In this document: positions 26,454 to 36,525 of the stretch, piece by piece
How the letters are laid out: every line of letters begins with the position of its first letter
How positions within the stretch are numbered: position 1 is the first letter of the stretch
From: an uncultured Dehalococcoidia bacterium
GTDB lineage: Bacteria > Chloroflexota > Dehalococcoidia > Lucifugimonadales > Lucifugimonadaceae
Direction of reading: 5' to 3'
DNA length: 64,000 nt
Assembly (NCBI GenBank): GCA_958295935.1
Contig: OY282385.1
Location: forward strand, 682,001 to 746,000
The notes under the pieces: model-generated
Seen by the model: the letters and a program-made list of their open reading frames with translations, nothing else
What the model was told of the DNA's origin: nothing
Databases searched by the model: none
Program-made: the position numbers and the translations under genes

Positions 26454-29400
26454 TTACAGGTTGCTGAGATTGCTCAGTTCGGAAGGTATCTCGCCGCTCA
26501 ACTGGTTCCCTCTGAGGTTTAGCCGTCTCAGGCTACTGAGATTCCCAAGCTCCGGGGGCATCTCGCCGCTCAACTCGTTCTGACTGAGGTCCAGCGAGTA
26601 CAGCTTGCTGAGATTCCCAAATTCCACGGGTATCCCGCCGCTCAACTGGTTCCTGTCGAGGGACAGAAATCCTAAGTTAGTGAGTTTGCCCAGTTCCGCG
26701 GGTATCTCTCCGCTAAGCTGGTTGTGACGGAGAGATAACGATGTCAGGCTGCTGAGATTCCCAAGCTCCGCGGGTATCTCACCGCTCAACTGGTTCCCAC
26801 GGAGGGTCAACCCTTTCAGGCTGCTGAGACTGCCAAGCTCAACGGGTAGCTCTCCGATCAACTGGTTCCCGGAGAGGTCCAGCAATTCCAGATTGCTGAG
26901 ACTGCCAAGCTCAACGGGTAGCTCTCCGATCAACTCGTTGTAATTGAGGGACAGCGATGTCAGGTTGCTGAGATTCCCAAGCTCCGCGGGTATCACGCCG
27001 TTCAACTCGTTGTGACCGAGGGACAGCGACGTCAGGTTGCTGAGATTCCCAAGCTCCGCGGGTATCACGCCGTTCAACCCGTTGTGACCGAGGGACAACG
27101 ACGTCAGGCTACTGAGATTCCCAAGCTCCGCGGGTATCTCACCGAGCAACAGGTTCTCACTGAGGTCCAGCGATCCTAGGTTACTGATGTTGCCAAGTTC
27201 AGCGGGTATCTTGCCACTCAACTCGTTCTCACTGAGGTCCAGCGATCCTAGGTTACTAATGTTGCCAAGTTCAGCGGGTATCTCACCGAGCAACAGGTTA
27301 TCACTGAGGTCCAGAAATTCCAGGTTGCTGAGACTGCCCAGCTCGACGGGTATCTCACCCATCAAATAGTAATCACTGAGATCTAAGGCTGTAACCCGTC
27401 CATTCCCATCCGTGGTCACCCCGTACCATTCACCCAACGGCTTGGCGCTCAGCCAGTTGGCGTTGTTCTTCCAGTTCGCGCCGTCCGCGGCCTTATAGAG
27501 CGCCACCAGCGCCGCCCTGTCACTCGCCCTCGTCCAGAAAGGCAAACCTGTATCGGTTAAATCATTTTCCGTTAGATGTCGCAGACCCTCGGGTATCTCT
27601 CCGCTCAACTGGTTCTTATTGAGGTCCAGCCCTTCCAAGTTGCTGAGACTGCCCAATTCGACGGGTATCTCTCCCCTCAAACGGTTCCCACTGAGGGTCA
27701 GCATTTCCAGGTTGCTGAGGCTACCCAGTTCCGCAGGTATCTCTCCGACCAACTGGTTCCCACCGAGGCTCAGCCCTTCCAAGTTGTTGAGACTGCCTAA
27801 TTCCGAGGGTATCTCGCCGCTCAACTCGTTATCACTGAGGTTTAGCCATGTCAGGTTGCTGAGCTTGCCCAGTTCCGAGGGTATCTCTCCGCTCAACCCG
27901 TTATCACTGAGGTTTAGCCTTGTCAGGTCGCTGAGGTTGCCCAGTTCCGAGGGGATCTGGCCGCTCAACCCGTTATCACTGAGGTTTAGCCATGTCAGGT
28001 TGCTGAGGTTGCCCAATTCCGAGGGTATCTCGCCGCTCAACTCGTTCCCAGCGAAGTCCAGCGATCCCAGGTTGCTGAGCTTGCCCAGTTCAGAGGGTAT
28101 CTCGCCGCTCAACTCGTTCTCACTGAGGTTTAGCCTTGTCAGCTTGCTGAGACTGCCCAGTTCCGCAGGTATCTCGCCGCTCAACTCGTTCCCACTGAGG
28201 TCCAGATCTGTCAGCTTGCTGAGATTGCCCAGTTCGGAAGGGATCTCGCCGCTCAACTCGTTCCCACTGAGGTCCAGATCTGTCAGCTTGCTGAGGTTGC
28301 CCACTTCCGCGGGTATCTCACCGCTCAACTCGTTCCCACTAAGGTCCAGATCTGTCAGCTTGCTGAGATTGCCCAGTTCCGCAGGTATCTCTCCGCTCAA
28401 CTCGTTCCCACCGAGGCTCAGCCGTCCCAGCTTGCTGAGGTTGCCCAGTTCGTAAGGGATCTCGCCGCTCAACTCGTTCCCACTGAGGTCCAGATCTGTC
28501 AGCTTGCTGAGATTGCCCAGTTCGGAAGGGATCTCACCGCTTAACCCGCTTTCATCTAGGACCAGTACTTCCAGGTTGCTGAGGTCGCCACGTTCAGCAG
28601 GTATCTCGTCGCTCAAATGGTTATCACTAAGGTCCAGCGATGTCAGGTTGCTGAGATTGCCCAGTTCCGAGGGTATCTCTCCGCTCAACTGGTTGTTGTC
28701 GAGGTACAGCGATTTCAACTTACTGAGGTAGCCAAGTTCCGCGGGTATCTCACTCACCAAAAAGTTATCACAGAGGTACAGAAATTCCAGATTGCTGAGG
28801 TCGCCCAGTTCAGAGGGTATCTCTCCGACCAAGTCGTTCTCACTGAGGTCCAAGGTTGTAACCCGCCCATTCCCATCCGTGGCAACCCCGTACCATTCAC
28901 CCAGCGGCTTGTCGCTCAGCCAGTTGGCGTTCCCCTCCCAGTTCTCTCCGCCCGCGGCGTTGTAGAGCGCTGTCAGCGCCGCCCCTTCACTCGAGCTCGT
29001 CGAGAAGGGCAAACCTGTATCGGCTAAATCATTTTCCGTTACATGTCGCAGACCCTCGGGTATCTCTCCGCTCAACTGGTTCTCATTGAGGTCCAGCCCT
29101 TCCAGGTTGCTGAGACTGCCAAGCTCGGAGGGTATCTCGCCGTTTAACCGGTTCCCACCGAGACTAAGCATTGTCAGGTTGCTGAGGTTGCCCAGTTCAG
29201 AGGGAATCTCGCCGCTCAACCTGTTCAAACCGAGGTACAGCTCTGTCAAATTGCTGAGACTGCCAAGCTCGGAGGGTATCTCGCCGCGCAACTCGTTCTC
29301 ATAGAGGTGCAGCGTTGTCAATTTGCTGAGACTGCCAAGTTCCGCGGGTATCTCACCGCGTAATTCGTTCTCACTGAGGTCTAATGATGTCAGGTTGTTG

Positions 29401-30035
29401 AGGTTGTCCAGTTCGGAGGGTATCTCGCCGCTCAACTCGTTATCACTGAGGGTCAGCATTTCCAGGTTGCCGAGGCTGCCCAGTTCCGAGGGGATCTCGC
29501 CGCTCAACAGATTCTCATAGAGGAACATATGTCTCAGGTCACTGAGACTGCCAAGTTCGGAAGGTATCTCGCCGCTCAACCGGTTCCCACCGAGGTTTAG
29601 CCATTCCAGGTTGCTGAGATTGCCCAGTTCGGAGGGGATCTCTCCGCTCAACTGGTTCCCACCGAGGTACAGCGCTTCCAGGTTGTTGAGGCTGCCCAAC
29701 TCCGAAGGTATCTCGCCACTCAACCGGTTCCCACTGAGGTTTAGCCATTCCAGGTTGCTGAGGTTGCCCAGTTCGGGAGGTATTTCTCCGCTCAACCGGT
29801 TCTCTACGGGGTCCAGCCATGTAACGCGCCCATTCCCATTCGTGGTCACCCCGTACCATTTACCCAACGGCTTGTCGCTCAGCCAGTTGGCGTTGTTCTT
29901 CCAGTTCGCGCCGTCCGTGGCGTTATAGAGCGCCGCCAGCGCCGCCCTGTCCGTCGCGACCCCGCCTTTGGACGCGGGCGCGCTATCGTCCACGGAGCCA
30001 TCCCCCGCAAACGCCATACCCGCTATCGCGACCAA
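26454..30035 (-). CDS. giant secreted LRR protein (three modules)
   Basis: A protein of about 1,193 residues: hydrophobic leader (LVAIAGMAFAG), short linker, then three modules. Each opens with an N-cap (TDRAALAALYNATDGANW..NANWLSDKPLG.WYGV) followed by many 24-residue LRRs (LSGEIPSELG.LSNLE.L.LS.N). The first two modules end in a C-cap in which the Cys of GCIP and PFC in the 1-3718 protein are replaced (GEIPEGLR...GLPFS/W); the third ends abruptly at SNLSNL. The only start codons in frame are TTG 30035 or CTG 30044; the nearby ATG (30048) is out of frame. Base composition is more AT-rich than neighbouring metabolic genes. Likely an extracellular binding protein; ligand unknown. Confidence 0.82.
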   Translation of the reverse strand: MVAIAGMAFAGDGSVDDSAPASKGGVATDRAALAALYNATDGANWKNNANWLSDKPLGKWYGVTTNGNGRVTWLDPVENRLSGEIPPELGNLSNLEWLNLSGNRLSGEIPSELGSLNNLEALYLGGNQLSGEIPSELGNLSNLEWLNLGGNRLSGEIPSELGSLSDLRHMFLYENLLSGEIPSELGSLGNLEMLTLSDNELSGEIPSELDNLNNLTSLDLSENELRGEIPAELGSLSKLTTLHLYENELRGEIPSELGSLSNLTELYLGLNRLSGEIPSELGNLSNLTMLSLGGNRLNGEIPSELGSLSNLEGLDLNENQLSGEIPEGLRHVTENDLADTGLPFSTSSSEGAALTALYNAAGGENWEGNANWLSDKPLGEWYGVATDGNGRVTTLDLSENDLVGEIPSELGDLSNLEFLYLCDNFLVSEIPAELGYLSKLKSLYLDNNQLSGEIPSELGNLSNLTSLDLSDNHLSDEIPAERGDLSNLEVLVLDESGLSGEIPSELGNLSKLTDLDLSGNELSGEIPYELGNLSKLGRLSLGGNELSGEIPAELGNLSKLTDLDLSGNELSGEIPAEVGNLSKLTDLDLSGNELSGEIPSELGNLSKLTDLDLSGNELSGEIPAELGSLSKLTRLNLSENELSGEIPSELGKLSNLGSLDFAGNELSGEIPSELGNLSNLTWLNLSDNGLSGQIPSELGNLSDLTRLNLSDNGLSGEIPSELGKLSNLTWLNLSDNELSGEIPSELGSLNNLEGLSLGGNQLVGEIPAELGSLSNLEMLTLSGNRLRGEIPVELGSLSNLEGLDLNKNQLSGEIPEGLRHLTENDLTDTGLPFWTRASDRAALVALYKAADGANWKNNANWLSAKPLGEWYGVTTDGNGRVTALDLSDYYLMGEIPVELGSLSNLEFLDLSDNLLLGEIPAELGNISNLGSLDLSENELSGKIPAELGNISNLGSLDLSENLLLGEIPAELGNLSSLTSLSLGHNGLNGVIPAELGNLSNLTSLSLGHNELNGVIPAELGNLSNLTSLSLNYNELIGELPVELGSLSNLELLDLSGNQLIGELPVELGSLSSLKGLTLRGNQLSGEIPAELGNLSSLTSLSLRHNQLSGEIPAELGKLTNLGFLSLDRNQLSGGIPVEFGNLSKLYSLDLSQNELSGEMPPELGNLSSLRRLNLRGNQLSGEIPSELSNLSNL

Positions 30036-30113
30036 ACCAAACAGCCATACGCCTCCGGTTCAGGTATGCCACTCTTTCCCAAACGGCCTGCATCGATAAA
30101 ACCTCCCACCCTG

Positions 30114-31583
30114 TCAGATTATTGTGAGATTTCTAAGTTTCGCGGGTACCTCGCCACTCAAGTCGTAGTTCGAAGAGAGGTCCAGCACTTCTAGGTTGCT
30201 GAGATTGCCCAGATCGGAAGGGATCTCCCCGTCCAACCCGTTCATACCGAGGTCCAGAAATTCCAACTTGCTGAGACTGCCCAGCCCGACGGGTATCTCA
30301 CCCATCAAATGGTTCACACTGAGGTCCAGAAATTCCAACTTGTCGAGGTTGCCAAGTTCCTCGGGTATCTCACCGACCAACATGTTCTCACTGAGGTCTA
30401 AGGCTGTAACCCGCCCATTCCCATCCGTGATCACCCCGTACCATTCACCCAGCGGCTTGTCGCTCAGCCAGTTGGCGCTCTCCGCCCAGTTCTCTCCGTC
30501 CGCGGCGTTGTAGAGCGATGTCAGCGCCGCCCTGTCACTCGCGCTCGTCGAGAAGGGCAAACCTGTATCGGATAAATCATTTTCCGTTACATGTCGCAAA
30601 CCCTCGGGCATCTCTCCCCTCAACCGGTTCCCACTGAGGTCCAGCCCTTCCAGGTTGCTGAGACTGCCAAGTTCCGAAGGTATCTCCCCGCTCAACCGGT
30701 TCCCACCGAGACTAAGCATTGTCAGGTTGCTGAGGTTGCCCAGTTCAGAGGGAATCTCGCCGCTCAACCTGTTCAAACCGAGGTACAGCTCTGTCAACTT
30801 GCTGAGACTGCCAAGCTCGGAGGGTATCTCGCCGCGCAACTCGTTCTCATAGAGGTGCAGCGTTGTCAATTTGCTGAGACTGCCAAGTTCCGCGGGTATC
30901 TCACCGCGTAATTCGTTCTCACTGAGGTCTAATGATGTCAGGTTGCTGAGGTTGCCCAGTTCCGAGGGGATCTCGCCGCTCAACCGGTTCCCATAGAGGG
31001 TCAGCATTTCCAGGTTGCCGAGGCTGCCCAGTTCCGAGGGGATCTCGCCGCTCAACAGATTCTCATAGAGGAACATATGTCTCAGGTCACTGAGACTGCC
31101 AAGTTCGGAAGGTATCTCGCCGCTCAACCGGTTCCCACCGAGGTTTAGCCATTCCAGGTTGCTGAGATTGCCCAGTTCGGAGGGGATCTCTCCGCTCAAA
31201 CGGTTCCCACCGAGGTACAACGCTTCCAGGTTGTTGAGGCTGCCCAACTCCGAAGGTATTTCTCCGCTCAACTGGTTCCCACTGAGGTTTAGCCATTCCA
31301 GGTTGCTGAGGTTGCCCAGCTCGACGGGTATCTCGCCGCTTAACCGGTTCTCTACGGGGTCCAGCCATGTAACGCGCCCATTCTCATCCGTGGTCACCCC
31401 GTACCATTCGCCCAACGGCTTGTCGCTCAGCCAGTTGGCGTTGTTCTTCCAGTTCGCGCCGTCCGTGGCGTTATAGAGCGCCGCCAGCGCCGCCCTGTCC
31501 GTCGCGACCCCGCCCGGGGACGCGGGCGCGCTATCGTCCACGGAGCCATCCCCCGCAAACGCCATACCCGCTATCGCGACCAA
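30114..31583 (-). CDS. secreted LRR protein, tandem copy 1
   Basis: A 489-residue protein: leader LVAIAGMAFAG, one full LRR module with N- and C-cap (GEMPEGLRHVTENDLSDTGLPFS), then a second N-cap (SDRAALTSLYNAADGENW) with four or five LRRs that ends VPAKLRNLTII. It is nearly identical at DNA level to the copy at 31663-33132, one 1,549-bp unit away, and its first module is very close to that of the larger gene at 26454-30035. Same start problem: TTG at 31583 in frame, ATG at 31596 out of frame. Presumed exported ligand binder. Confidence 0.82.
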   Translation of the reverse strand: MVAIAGMAFAGDGSVDDSAPASPGGVATDRAALAALYNATDGANWKNNANWLSDKPLGEWYGVTTDENGRVTWLDPVENRLSGEIPVELGNLSNLEWLNLSGNQLSGEIPSELGSLNNLEALYLGGNRLSGEIPSELGNLSNLEWLNLGGNRLSGEIPSELGSLSDLRHMFLYENLLSGEIPSELGSLGNLEMLTLYGNRLSGEIPSELGNLSNLTSLDLSENELRGEIPAELGSLSKLTTLHLYENELRGEIPSELGSLSKLTELYLGLNRLSGEIPSELGNLSNLTMLSLGGNRLSGEIPSELGSLSNLEGLDLSGNRLRGEMPEGLRHVTENDLSDTGLPFSTSASDRAALTSLYNAADGENWAESANWLSDKPLGEWYGVITDGNGRVTALDLSENMLVGEIPEELGNLDKLEFLDLSVNHLMGEIPVGLGSLSKLEFLDLGMNGLDGEIPSDLGNLSNLEVLDLSSNYDLSGEVPAKLRNLTII

Positions 31584-31662
31584 ACCAAACAGCCATACGC
31601 CTCTGGTTCAGGTATGCCATTCTTTCCCAAACGGCCTGCATCGATAAAACCCTCCCGCCCTG

Positions 31663-33132
31663 TCAGATTATTGTGAGATTTCTAAGTTTCGCGGGTACCT
31701 CGCCACTCAAGTCGTAGTTCGAAGAGAGGTCCAGCACTTCTAGGTTGCTGAGATTGCCCAGCTCGGAAGGGATCTCCCCGTCCAACCCGTTCATACCGAG
31801 GTCCAGAAATTCCAACTCGCTGAGACTGCCCAGCCCTACGGGTATCTCACCCATCAAATGGTTCACACTGAGATCCAGAAATTCCAACTTGTCGAGGTTG
31901 CCAAGTTCCTCGGGTATCTCACCGACCAACATGTTCTCACTGAGGTCTAAGGCTGTAACCCGCCCATTCCCATCCGTGGTCACCCCGTACCATTCACCCA
32001 GCGGCTTGTCGCTCAGCCAGTTGGCGCTCTCCGCCCAGTTCTCTCCGTCCGCGGCGTTGTAGAGCGATGTCAGCGCCGCCCTGTCACTCGCGCTCGTCGA
32101 GAAGGGCAAACCTGTATCGGCTAAATCATTTTCCGTTACATGCCGCAGACCCTCGGGTATCTCTCCGCTCAACCGGTTCTCATTGAGGTCCAGCCCTTCC
32201 AGGTTGCTGAGATTGCCAAGTTCCGAAGGTATCTCCCCGCTCAAACGGTTCCCACCGAGACTAAGCATTGTCAGGTTGCTGAGACGGCCTAGTTCGGATG
32301 GGATCTCTCCGCTCAAACGGTTCAAACCTAGGTACAGCTCTGTCAAATTGCTGAGGTTGCCCAGTTCAGAGGGGATCTCGCCGCGCAATCCGTTCTCATA
32401 GAGGTACAGCCATTCTAGGTTGCTAAGACTGCCAAGTTCCGCGGGTATCTCGCCGCGTAATTCGTTCTCACTGAGGTCTAATGATGTCAGGTTGCTGAGG
32501 TTACCCAGTTCCGAGGGGATCTCGCCGCTCAACTCGTTATCATTGAGGGTCAGCATTTCCAGGTTGCCGAGGCTGCCCAGTTCCGAGGGGATCTCGCCGC
32601 TCAACAGATTCTCATAGAGGAACATATGTCTCAGGTCACTGAGACCGCCAAGTTCGGAAGGTATCTCGCCGCTCAATCTGTTCCCACCAAGGTTTAACCA
32701 GGCCAAGCTACTGAGATTGCCCAGTTCGGAGGGGATCTCTCCGCTCAACCGGTTCCCACCGAGGTACAGCGCTTCCAGGTTGTTGAGGCTGCCCAACTCC
32801 GAAGGTATCTCGCCACTCAACCGGTTCCCACTGAGGTTTAGCCATTCCAGGTTGCTGAGGTTGCCCAGTTCGGGAGGTATTTCTCCGCTCAACCGGTTCT
32901 CTACGGGGTCCAGCCATGTAACGCGCCCATTCTCATCCGTGGTCACCCCGTACCATTCGCCCAACGGCTTGTCGCTCAGCCAGTTGGCGTTGTTCTTCCA
33001 GTTCGCGCCGTCCGTGGCGTTATAGAGCGCCGCCAGCGCCGCCCTGTCCGTCGCGACCCCGCCCATGGACGCGGGCGCGCTATCGTCCACGGAGCCATCC
33101 CCCGCAAACGCCATACCCGCTATCGCGACCAA
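31663..33132 (-). CDS. secreted LRR protein, tandem copy 2
   Basis: A 489-residue twin of the preceding gene with scattered substitutions concentrated on LRR surface positions (for example SSLAWLNLGG versus SNLEWLNLGG). The order leader, N-cap, LRRs, Cys-less C-cap, second N-cap, four or five LRRs and VPAKLRNLTII is unchanged. Same start context, TTG 33132 in frame and ATG 33145 out of frame, with GGAG rather than GGAGG upstream. As the most upstream minus-strand member it may carry the promoter of the array; none was identified. Confidence 0.82.
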   Translation of the reverse strand: MVAIAGMAFAGDGSVDDSAPASMGGVATDRAALAALYNATDGANWKNNANWLSDKPLGEWYGVTTDENGRVTWLDPVENRLSGEIPPELGNLSNLEWLNLSGNRLSGEIPSELGSLNNLEALYLGGNRLSGEIPSELGNLSSLAWLNLGGNRLSGEIPSELGGLSDLRHMFLYENLLSGEIPSELGSLGNLEMLTLNDNELSGEIPSELGNLSNLTSLDLSENELRGEIPAELGSLSNLEWLYLYENGLRGEIPSELGNLSNLTELYLGLNRLSGEIPSELGRLSNLTMLSLGGNRLSGEIPSELGNLSNLEGLDLNENRLSGEIPEGLRHVTENDLADTGLPFSTSASDRAALTSLYNAADGENWAESANWLSDKPLGEWYGVTTDGNGRVTALDLSENMLVGEIPEELGNLDKLEFLDLSVNHLMGEIPVGLGSLSELEFLDLGMNGLDGEIPSELGNLSNLEVLDLSSNYDLSGEVPAKLRNLTII

Positions 33133-33408: not shown

Positions 33409-34239
33409 TTACTCTTTCCCGCCCGCGACAGACTTCACCACCACCCGCACTCCGTTGATAGTGCCCGTCGCCGCCTTGCGGACCGCGTCCCCCGCGGCGT
33501 CGCTCACGTCGTAAGCGGCTTCGATCGCTCCGGTTGCGGCCGCGGAAGCGGTCTCCTCCACGTTCAGCCCGGTCTTCCTGGCAGCGTCAATCGCGCCATT
33601 GACGGTGGCGACGGCAACCTTGCCAAGGTCTTCCCCGGTCATTGCCGCGCTGCTGATTATCTGCCTGGAGGTGTCGCGAGTGGCAGTAATCACGTCCCCC
33701 GACGCGCTGCTAACCGCGGTGACCACCCCGGCTACCGTCCCCTCAGCAGCATCGACCAACGAGCCGCCTATTTCCTTTGTCCCGTCTATGACGCCGCGAG
33801 TCACCTGCACTACAGATTCCTCAGCAGTCAGGCCGACGGATGCGCCGCCTTTGAGAGCCCCCTCCACGGTATTCTGGGCCGCACTACCCAACTCCGCGCC
33901 CGCGCTGCTGGAGCCTCGAATCGCTCCCACCACCACGTCATGGAGCATCGTCGTTGAGGCGGTGGCGACCGCGCCCGCGCCTTCGATGACTCCGATAGTG
34001 GAGTCCCTTATCACCGCGCCCGTGCTGCCGCCGATGCTGCTCGCGGCTTCCAGAGTGCCGGTCACAGCGTCCTGGGCGAGGAGTCCAACTTCACCGCCCA
34101 CGGAACGGGCGCCCTTGAGTGCATTAACCGTGCTGTCACGGATCACGTCAGTGGCCAAGTTCCCCACCTGCCCGGTGCCCTCCAGCGTGGCGGTCAATGA
34201 ATCCTTCACCGCTTTACCAACTCGTCCCAAGATCGCCAT
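33409..34239 (-). CDS. protein of twelve tandem 22-residue repeats
   Basis: A 276-residue protein made almost wholly of repeats: after MAILGRVGK come twelve ungapped 22-residue units, e.g. VIRDSTVNALKGARSVGGEVGL and LAQDAVTGTLEAASSIGGSTGA, consensus [AV]xxDxTxGxLxGAxxVGxxxxx. Two 11-residue (hendecad) periods per unit suggest amphipathic helix, as in LEA, apolipoprotein or phasin-like proteins. It has no signal peptide, Cys or Trp and is rich in Ala, Gly, Val and Thr. ATG at 34239 follows AAGGAG at about seven bases. Divergent from the PLD/ATPase gene. No family assigned; membrane-surface, storage-granule or stress-protectant roles are all possible. Confidence 0.8.
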   Translation of the reverse strand: MAILGRVGKAVKDSLTATLEGTGQVGNLATDVIRDSTVNALKGARSVGGEVGLLAQDAVTGTLEAASSIGGSTGAVIRDSTIGVIEGAGAVATASTTMLHDVVVGAIRGSSSAGAELGSAAQNTVEGALKGGASVGLTAEESVVQVTRGVIDGTKEIGGSLVDAAEGTVAGVVTAVSSASGDVITATRDTSRQIISSAAMTGEDLGKVAVATVNGAIDAARKTGLNVEETASAAATGAIEAAYDVSDAAGDAVRKAATGTINGVRVVVKSVAGGKE

Positions 34240-34479
34240 CGTGTTCTCCTTCTCGCTTAGTTTGAGTCTTAGACATGTTCACCATTGTAACCGGTAGAAA
34301 TGCAAAACGCATGTACCAACCGCGCCCCCCGGCGAGCGCCTATCAAGTCCAGGCAGTCAAGCGATTCCGGTAAACTCGCCGGACTGAAACCCCTGCCAAC
34401 AAGCACGGCCCAGCCACAGGGTACGCCAATCATCCCAGAATCCAACAGGCGGCGGGAGGTCTTCGGAGATCACAGCAGT

Positions 34480-36525
34480 ATGACGCAGCAACAGCACAGG
34501 TTGGGTCTGGATGATCCTGATTCCCTGACCAAAGACTCGGGCCTGTCTGTCGTCCGGGCTCGGAGCGAAAGCGTGGAGTCTTTCGACCGGTGCTTCTTTG
34601 ACGGGTTTACGTCCATGAAGGCGCTGACCTACACGGCCAGCATGCACATGATCGTAGGCCTATTACGGGATTTCGAGTACGCGGACTTCGAGTGTGTCTT
34701 TGGCCACGAGGGTATTATCTCGCCAGACGTCAATAATGTTCTAGCCTTCCAGGCGGTGCTGGACGAGCGCCTGAGCAAGGTTTTCGCAGTCGTCAAGGCG
34801 TCTGACGAGCGTCGCCGAGTCTTGTTCGACCGGATCGCCGACCACACGGTGCGTTTCTTCGTCGTCAAAGACAAGATCGCCCACGCCAAGATATACCTGC
34901 TTGAGAGAGACGATTTGCGACGCGTGATAATCGGCTCGGCGAACCTGTCCGAAACGGCGTTCTCCGGGCGCCAGGCCGAGACACTCGTAGTGTTCGACAA
35001 CGACGATACTGCGTGGAATCTCTACACGACGCAATACGAGGCCGTCCGCAGCGTAGCCGCGAGCCGCTTGATGCCGCGGCAAGAGCCCATACCGGCCGAA
35101 CTCATACCGGTCGAGGAGATACCGGCGCTCAAGTCGGTCGAAGAAAGTCAGAAGGAGTTGACTATCTACGCGCCTGCCGACAGCCAGGAAGAGGCCGAAG
35201 TATCGATTCCTATAGTGCGCGAAACGGTGGTGAAAGTAGCGGACTCCTTACGGCATACCCTGGCCGCTGTACGACCCGACAAGAACGGCCATGTACGCAT
35301 CACCCCGCGGATTGTGAAAGAGTCGATCAAGATATCCAGGGGCCGCCTCCGAGAAAACGACGCGAAGCCCAATGTGAACTTAACTCGCCTAGGGAAGAAT
35401 TTCATCCTGTCGGGAAAGGTTATGAGCCTTGACGCGAATCCAGATGACGTTCGCAAAGACGTCGCCCACTGGATAGAGTTCTTCGACAACTATGAGAACG
35501 GGTTTAGGGGTGACGTACCCCGGCTGCAGCGAGATTACTTCACCTTCATGAGCTGGTTCTACTTCTCGCCGTTACTTTGCGACGTGCGCAATCTCGCCCT
35601 CCGCTCAGGCGCATTCAGCTTCGAGCAGCCTATGTTCGCAGTCTTGTACGGCTCCAGCAATTGCGGCAAGACCAGCCTCATACAGACCCTCATGACCTCC
35701 ATGTTCTCCCACCCGCATGAAGTCGGAGCAGACCAGTTCACGCGCACCAACCTGAAAGCTCTCCAAGGTAGCTTCAAGAGACTCCCCGTAGTGTTCGACG
35801 ACGTAACCAAGGATCGGTTCAACCGCCACGCCGAGGAGGTCATCAAGCAGGAATACATTACCAACCCGGAACATCCCTGCTTCGCCCTATCGATGAACGC
35901 GGAGGCGCGCAACTTCAAGGACGAGATCGTCAAGAGGTGTCTGATGATCTACACGCGCACCTCCTTGCCGGGCGATCAGACGAACGCTCGCAAACGGCTC
36001 CAGCGTTCGATTGCACGCATACGGGACAAGATGACCACCGCGCTTTACCGCGAGTACCTGAAGCGAATGACCGCACAGGTAGACGAGCTTCGGGAATCAG
36101 GGCACGACTCACTCGCCGACGCCGACGTATTGGAGTTGTCATCGAGAGTCCTGTGCGACGTCTTTCAAAAACACCTGCCCAAGAGCTCCAGTATGCCCAG
36201 TTGGTGCAGCCCAATGACTCTGGAGGAGTATCAGCAACGCGCCTGGGACAGACCCCGTCGGGTACTCGAGAATTTGCTTAATGCCGATAAATACACCAAA
36301 GACCGCAAGCCATCCGATGGATCCTGGACCATTTCGGGCGAAATGATCCTCCTCGGGACAGGGCAAATCGGCACTGCCCGCACACGCAACGAGATACCCG
36401 ACTGGATCCTTGACGACACGGCGTCAGTCGCCAACCAGATCGGCCTGAAACGCAGCGAGGTCGAAAACTTCCTGGGGCGCAAACTGAGGCGGCGGACCTC
36501 GATTTGGCCCTTCAAAGGCCGATGA
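34480..36525 (+). CDS. PLD-type nuclease fused to a P-loop (AAA+/SF3-like) ATPase
   Basis: About 681 residues. The N-terminal domain ends in a phospholipase-D motif, H135-A-K137-IYLL with G152-S-A-N155 (IIGSANLSETAF), like NgoFVII/BfiI-type nuclease domains; only one HxK motif is present, so an active site would need a dimer. A Glu/Pro linker follows (about 205-270). The ATPase has Walker A GSSNCGKT (391-398), Walker B VVFDD (437-441) and a sensor-like FALSMN (468-473) followed by a conserved-looking KRCL. The tail (LKRSEVENFLGRKLRRR) is basic and could bind DNA. ATG 34480 is preferred over 34300, whose first 60 residues look non-coding. Function not established; DNA cleavage gated by ATP, as in defence proteins, is inference. 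Confidence 0.72.
   Translation: MTQQQHRLGLDDPDSLTKDSGLSVVRARSESVESFDRCFFDGFTSMKALTYTASMHMIVGLLRDFEYADFECVFGHEGIISPDVNNVLAFQAVLDERLSKVFAVVKASDERRRVLFDRIADHTVRFFVVKDKIAHAKIYLLERDDLRRVIIGSANLSETAFSGRQAETLVVFDNDDTAWNLYTTQYEAVRSVAASRLMPRQEPIPAELIPVEEIPALKSVEESQKELTIYAPADSQEEAEVSIPIVRETVVKVADSLRHTLAAVRPDKNGHVRITPRIVKESIKISRGRLRENDAKPNVNLTRLGKNFILSGKVMSLDANPDDVRKDVAHWIEFFDNYENGFRGDVPRLQRDYFTFMSWFYFSPLLCDVRNLALRSGAFSFEQPMFAVLYGSSNCGKTSLIQTLMTSMFSHPHEVGADQFTRTNLKALQGSFKRLPVVFDDVTKDRFNRHAEEVIKQEYITNPEHPCFALSMNAEARNFKDEIVKRCLMIYTRTSLPGDQTNARKRLQRSIARIRDKMTTALYREYLKRMTAQVDELRESGHDSLADADVLELSSRVLCDVFQKHLPKSSSMPSWCSPMTLEEYQQRAWDRPRRVLENLLNADKYTKDRKPSDGSWTISGEMILLGTGQIGTARTRNEIPDWILDDTASVANQIGLKRSEVENFLGRKLRRRTSIWPFKGR

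Follow-up and report, generated by a model that had tools for sequence, protein, structure and literature searches.

A gene at positions 34480-36525 (+) of the window, the 64,000-nucleotide stretch of DNA that was analysed as a whole, raises the question of what a phospholipase-D (PLD) nuclease and an AAA+ motor do together in one protein. The gene encodes 681 residues, with the nuclease domain at the N-terminus and the motor at the C-terminus. Its reading frame is open from 34300 to 36525; with translation beginning further upstream, at the in-frame ATG at 34300, the product would have 741 residues. The start at 34480 is preceded by a plausible GGAG, and the corresponding N-terminus aligns with the start of most relatives. 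The motifs on which a sequence-only reading had been built (HAK...GSAN, a Glu/Pro linker, Walker A at 391-398, Walker B at 437-441 and Asn473) could be read directly in the open reading frame. An invariant residue absent from that list, Arg486, is added here. The features are the following:

34576..35067 (+): PLD nuclease domain, residues 33-196; Pfam RE_NgoFVII above cut-off, fold matches 4rct, 1byr and 7clg
34882..34890 (+): HxK catalytic motif, H135-K137 (HAK, 135-137); H in 48/48 and K in 47/48 relatives
34933..34944 (+): GSAN motif, residues 152-155; S153 and N155 in 48/48 relatives
35068..35376 (+): variable Glu/Pro-rich linker, residues 197-299; pLDDT below 50, Glu+Pro content
35368..36522 (+): predicted AAA+ motor (about 297-600) and C-terminal alpha/beta extension (about 600-671); AlphaFold2 pLDDT 83, pTM 0.84, Cch and SaPIBov1 Rep fold matches
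35650..35673 (+): Walker A, GSSNCGKT, residues 391-398; K397 in 48/48 relatives, position 398 Thr/Ser in 36/36 bacterial and Gly/Asp in 12/12 haloarchaeal proteins
35788..35802 (+): Walker B, VVFDD, residues 437-441; D440 in 36/36 bacterial and 10/12 haloarchaeal proteins
35896..35898 (+): sensor-1/motif C Asn473; 47/48 relatives
35935..35937 (+): candidate arginine finger Arg486, 13 residues past sensor 1; 48/48 relatives

Profile searches were performed with the window protein and its relatives. The Pfam PLD model RE_NgoFVII scored 29 bits in the window protein, as compared to a curated cut-off of 23.8, and matched 15 of 15 aligned relatives. The SF3-type 'RNA_helicase' model PF00910 matched 13 of 15 aligned relatives and stayed below cut-off in the window protein, to which a second SF3-type helicase model, DUF5906, also gave a weak match. 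The Pfam search gave no SF2 match to the window protein and no match in its C-terminal part, and a target-recognition (SRA) domain was not found. The linker (197-300) contains 22% Glu+Pro as compared to 11% overall. A search against the sequences of solved structures gave no significant match. With PADLOC-DB 2.0.0, only partial matches were obtained, to the PLD motif or to the P-loop/ATPase part. Membership in a PADLOC system was rejected, the ZacB match being to the PLD motif alone and the mad8 and GajA matches to the ATPase part alone. Judged by these searches, this database seems to lack a dedicated model for the PLD-AAA+ family.

The conservation of the two putative active sites was examined. 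In 34 full-length relatives, H135, K137, S153, A154, N155, G391, G396, K397, D440, N473 and R486 are invariant. In a comparison of 48 sequences (36 bacterial and 12 haloarchaeal proteins), there is no variation at H135, S153, N155, G396, K397 and R486, and K137, D440 and N473 are almost invariant, each differing in at most two relatives. Both domains are present at full length throughout the family, interrupted or decayed copies excepted. This pattern is what selection for two functional active sites would produce and, by the same alignments, HAK, GSAN, Walker A and B, Asn473 and Arg486 of the window protein are not chance motifs.

AlphaFold2 gave a moderate model of the whole chain (pLDDT 67) and a good model of residues 291-681 alone (pLDDT 83, pTM 0.84). 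A PLD fold, whose absence around residues 100-170 had been set beforehand as a reason to abandon the assignment, was predicted at residues 33-196. It matches the NgoAVII R-protein and Nuc (4rct and 1byr, Z 11.4 for both), and SauUSI is among its top fold matches. By analogy with SauUSI and BfiI, it is plausible that the PLD domains of the window protein work as a dimer. The fold also matches tyrosyl-DNA phosphodiesterase (Tdp1; 3sq8, Z 8.1), as might be expected of a DNA-repair enzyme clearing proteins or damaged ends from DNA. Some haloarchaeal members are indeed annotated as tyrosyl-DNA phosphodiesterases, and one locus adjoins SMC/NurA repair genes. However, Tdp1 has two HKD-type motifs per chain as compared to one in the window protein, the best PLD matches include the endonucleases NgoAVII, Nuc and SauUSI, and the occurrence of the family is far too patchy for core repair. 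We consider a Tdp1-like role very improbable.

At residues 295-671, the model has an AAA+ fold of the replicative-helicase type. Its best fold match is SCCmec Cch (5dgk; Z 13.0, 286 aligned, rmsd 7.4) and its second SaPIBov1 Rep (8tch; Z 12.9, 289 aligned, rmsd 7.5); MCM proteins were matched with Z around 10, D5-type and papillomavirus E1 helicases lower. Walker A, Walker B, the sensor-1 Asn, the arginine finger candidate and the overall fold are all features of the SF3/MCM class, of which an arginine finger at such a spacing after sensor 1 is typical. A pre-sensor-1 beta-hairpin between Walker B and sensor 1 is typical of this class too; in the model, that interval forms a helix and a loop, with no strand pair, at modest confidence (pLDDT around 70). 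Overall, the motor fold as modelled belongs to the SF3/MCM replicative-helicase class. The early view of a single chain that combines a PLD nuclease with an AAA+/SF3-like motor and has a single HxK is borne out by the sequence, by its conservation and by the predicted structure.

The distribution of the gene was then considered. Seventeen relatives were found in GTDB genomes, belonging to Chloroflexota, Ignavibacteria/Kapaibacteria, one gammaproteobacterial MAG, one Entotheonella MAG and one unclassified genome. Plasmid-borne copies occur in Acetobacteraceae, Thermus, Arcobacter, Athalassotoga, lactobacilli and haloarchaea. Those of lactobacilli were reached with an Arcobacter query, and members of a second, distant clade within the window's own class led to the haloarchaeal ones. 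The gene is present in 22 of 400 Chloroflexota species; the corresponding figures are 9 of 19 for one family and 11 of 294 for the class. In the class-level survey, nine genomes of the same family were examined, none of them with the gene. Decayed copies and relics with stop codons occur. In the Thermus plasmids pTHEOS02 (L045) and pTTJL1802 (L051), the same PLD-AAA+ gene is broken by a transposase. The DUF885/beta-lactamase-like operon adjoining the window gene is kept in six relatives, where no PLD-AAA+ match was seen, and phyla are intermixed in the gene tree. Because of the patchy occurrence, the relics, the site lacking the gene in relatives and the phylum-mixing tree, the distribution is that of an accessory gene acquired, lost and transferred.

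The neighbours of the gene in the window are leucine-rich-repeat (LRR) proteins, a repeat protein, a DUF885 protein and a beta-lactamase-like protein, with no recognised defence gene. With such neighbours, the locus is not a defence island. Three tandem LRR proteins of 1193, 489 and 489 residues are encoded at 26454-33132 (-); the two 489-residue copies are 95% identical, so that the duplications look recent. The divergent gene at 33409-34239 (-) had been described as encoding 22-residue repeats, and a clear 22-residue period was found (identity 0.21 at lag 22 and 0.25 at lag 44, for a mean of 0.10). The product has 276 residues, is rich in Ala, Gly and Val, contains about twelve repeats and has no useful-score match in Pfam, NCBIfam or PADLOC. 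This gene adjoins no relative of the PLD-AAA+ gene; it was rejected as a partner and is not part of the unit.

In a survey of the neighbourhoods of homologues, proposed at the outset as a check for defence islands, no neighbour recurred and defence enrichment was not established. In the 42 loci compared, no gene family recurs next to the PLD-AAA+ gene, and a conserved partner gene was rejected. Therefore, the bacterial gene would act alone or with housekeeping partners. In at least seven of 28 chromosomal loci (L010, L016, L017, L069, L072, L083, L084), a restriction, GmrSD or BREX-helicase gene or another candidate for defence lies no more than about two genes away, and neighbours in several loci are type IIG enzymes, a SauUSI-like enzyme, GmrSD proteins and a BREX helicase. 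Defence genes, among them Hma and type III R-M, were also present in a random set of equal size drawn from these genomes. For this reason, we do not claim an enrichment in defence neighbours or defence islands.

Some individual contexts can be described. Three loci from two distant clades have GmrSD-type restriction genes close to the PLD-AAA+ gene, namely L010 and L016 (Caldilineaceae MAGs) and L083 (G422). A 450-residue protein is encoded at L002:8624-9976, its gene ending 3 bases ahead of the closest relative of the window gene. This protein seems internally duplicated, has cysteine clusters and looks Cas4/RecB-like by eye; having no Pfam match and not being recurrent, it was rejected as a partner. 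On several haloarchaeal plasmids (L122, L129, L130, L132, L133), the gene is flanked on one side by a PD-(D/E)XK nuclease/helicase cluster and on the other by helicase/RNase H-like genes, some of these loci also encoding a ThiF-family protein. This context recurs in archaea and does not include Argonaute.

The fold of the motor, whose best matches are initiator helicases of SCCmec and SaPI elements, also suits a mobile-element replication or transfer protein, that is, a Cch/SaPI-Rep-like helicase whose PLD domain nicks DNA. HUH nucleases joined to SF3 helicases in rolling-circle Reps are the model for such a protein. Many copies are plasmid-borne, some of them near rep/par genes. However, the plasmids with the PLD-AAA+ gene have their own replication initiators, and no primase, recombinase or other mobile-element gene recurs beside it in the 42 loci. 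Moreover, a search of 50,697 phage records and of viral contigs gave no match to the family, and a phage or viral origin was rejected on this basis. Finally, the haloarchaeal homologue AgaP restricts plasmids instead of serving them (PMC11442185). We therefore regard a replication or transfer function as unlikely.

AgaP belongs to the APAP (long-A Argonaute plus PLD) system (mLife 2024; PMC11442185). The sequence-only reading recognised no named system in this domain order, but AgaP is a named relative, homologous over both domains. Comparison of A1 with the haloarchaeal proteins using hhalign aligned 564 columns (query 39-660) with a probability of 99.7 and an E value of 1.3e-26, both domains being covered, and hmmsearch of A1 against AgaP gave an E value of 2e-17. 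The open reading frame of Natrinema pellirubrum DSM 15624 on pNATPE02, beside a Piwi/Argonaute gene, is AgaP: H105, K107, E112, G119, S120, G157, S158 and N160 of the published protein are all at their stated positions (8/8; PMC11442185). AgaP carries the same C-terminal P-loop domain as the window protein. The main text of the AgaP paper mentions neither an ATPase nor a Walker motif, nor any test of the ATPase domain (PMC11442185).

AgaP expressed without its Argonaute is toxic in Haloarcula hispanica, and H105, K107, G157, S158 and N160 are needed for toxicity; plasmid restriction jointly with Argonaute depends on the AgaP catalytic site H105/K107; the APAP system gives immunity to a ssDNA virus, boosted by AgaP, without abortive infection (PMC11442185). 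AgaP homology therefore raises the defence reading from a guess to an inference from homology. The defence link suggested earlier stands as far as this relative is concerned, whose part in immunity to plasmids and viruses has been tested, and finds no support in the neighbourhood of the window gene. The toxicity of AgaP alone, with its requirement for PLD residues, is also consistent with an abortive-infection or addiction toxin, the PLD domain killing the host once the ATPase senses infection or element loss, and copies on Komagataeibacter plasmids sit amid toxin-antitoxin modules. In contrast, the complete AgaP system gave no abortive outcome (PMC11442185) and no antitoxin-like partner recurs in the 42 loci, so that a toxin function appears quite unlikely.

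As regards the APAP system itself, an AgaP homologue with active-type PLD residues is present in the window, and a long-A Argonaute in the operon is absent. A Piwi search gave no match in the window's genome or in 20 other Chloroflexota carriers, and no Piwi/Argonaute gene lies beside the bacterial loci. Being without Argonaute, the window gene is not an APAP system, and this identity was rejected. Six of 14 inspected haloarchaeal copies adjoin a Piwi/Argonaute gene. In all 12 haloarchaeal proteins, Gly or Asp (GKG/GKD) replaces the Walker A Ser/Thr retained in all 36 bacterial proteins, and two of the 12 have also lost the first Walker B Asp. The Walker A change is also seen in those haloarchaeal copies that have no Piwi gene close by, so that it tracks lineage and not strictly Argonaute linkage; that Argonaute replaced the role of the motor is thus put forward as a hypothesis. 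Since AgaP acts with Argonaute and is toxic alone, its function may not extend to an Argonaute-free relative at about 18% identity.

Overall, the data are best explained if the product of the window gene is an ATP-dependent PLD nuclease that works on its own and destroys foreign DNA such as plasmids or viral genomes, in an Argonaute-free bacterial branch of the AgaP family; we give this reading a probability of roughly 60%. It is supported by the catalytic residues of both domains, conserved in haloarchaea and in bacteria of several phyla, by AgaP homology, by the SF3/MCM motor fold and by the patchy, plasmid-borne distribution without matches in phage records or viral contigs. The lack of a recurring partner and the occurrence of some copies among restriction, GmrSD or BREX-like genes were also counted in its favour.

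For such a nuclease, we infer ring formation, DNA translocation, PLD pairing, a foreign-DNA target in bacteria and self-control. On DNA, the C-terminal AAA+ domains would form a ring, which is probably hexameric; like the related mobile-element helicases, they would most likely do so where the DNA is single-stranded or being replicated. ATP hydrolysis would move or unwind the DNA. The N-terminal PLD domains, on flexible linkers, would come together in pairs, each pair combining its two HxK motifs into a single metal-independent active site, and would cut the DNA via a phosphohistidine intermediate. In the archaeal branch, Argonaute would provide targeting and control of toxicity; in bacteria, the motor or the linker would do both. 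A tentative proposal is that the AAA+ ring itself is the sensor. The bacterial enzyme might then load on replicating or single-stranded extrachromosomal DNA and cut without guide or partner, while in haloarchaea targeting would have passed to Argonaute and the Mg-binding Ser/Thr of Walker A would have disappeared from the motor. If this is true, one family shows a shift from a motor-guided to a nucleic-acid-guided nuclease. It is predicted that Walker A mutants abolish activity in bacterial members, perhaps not in AgaP. The analysis ties AgaP, known from experiments as a helper of Argonaute, to a larger family with members in bacteria and archaea, a link previously unmade, and shows that it carries a motor domain absent from its describers' main text. 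The Argonaute-free version lets the effector be studied alone.

Among known systems, SCCmec Cch and SaPIBov1 Rep give the best structural match to the motor, over nearly the whole C-terminal half. To our knowledge, these helicases have no PLD domain. They replicate their own elements, beside origins or primases, whereas no element-gene partner recurs beside the PLD-AAA+ gene in the 42 loci. Helicases of the SCC type assemble into hexamers and dodecamers, and it appears that two hexamers of SaPI Rep bind at its origin (PMC7581432). The restriction enzymes NgoAVII and BfiI share with the window protein the PLD nuclease fold and one HxK per chain, but both have a sequence-recognition domain. The SF2 ATPase of NgoAVII is a separate subunit (PMC7913695).

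SauUSI, a type IV restriction enzyme, is the tested precedent for joining a PLD nuclease to a translocating motor within a single chain; its nuclease domains form dimers and its linker is acidic (PMC7913695). As in the window protein, the chain begins with the PLD nuclease and continues through an acidic linker to a motor driven by ATP. However, SauUSI has an SF2 helicase motor and a terminal target-recognition (SRA) domain, whereas the window motor is SF3/MCM-like, with no SF2 Pfam match and no recognition domain found; a SauUSI-type enzyme was rejected as the identity of the window protein on these grounds. The APAP system differs in that no Argonaute gene adjoins the window gene or was found in its genome. 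As compared to AgaP, identity is about 18%, the HxK-GSxN spacing is about 14 residues instead of about 50, and Walker A is intact (GKT). The two proteins nevertheless have the HxK and GSxN catalytic residues in common, H105/K107 of AgaP being equivalent to H135/K137 of the window protein.
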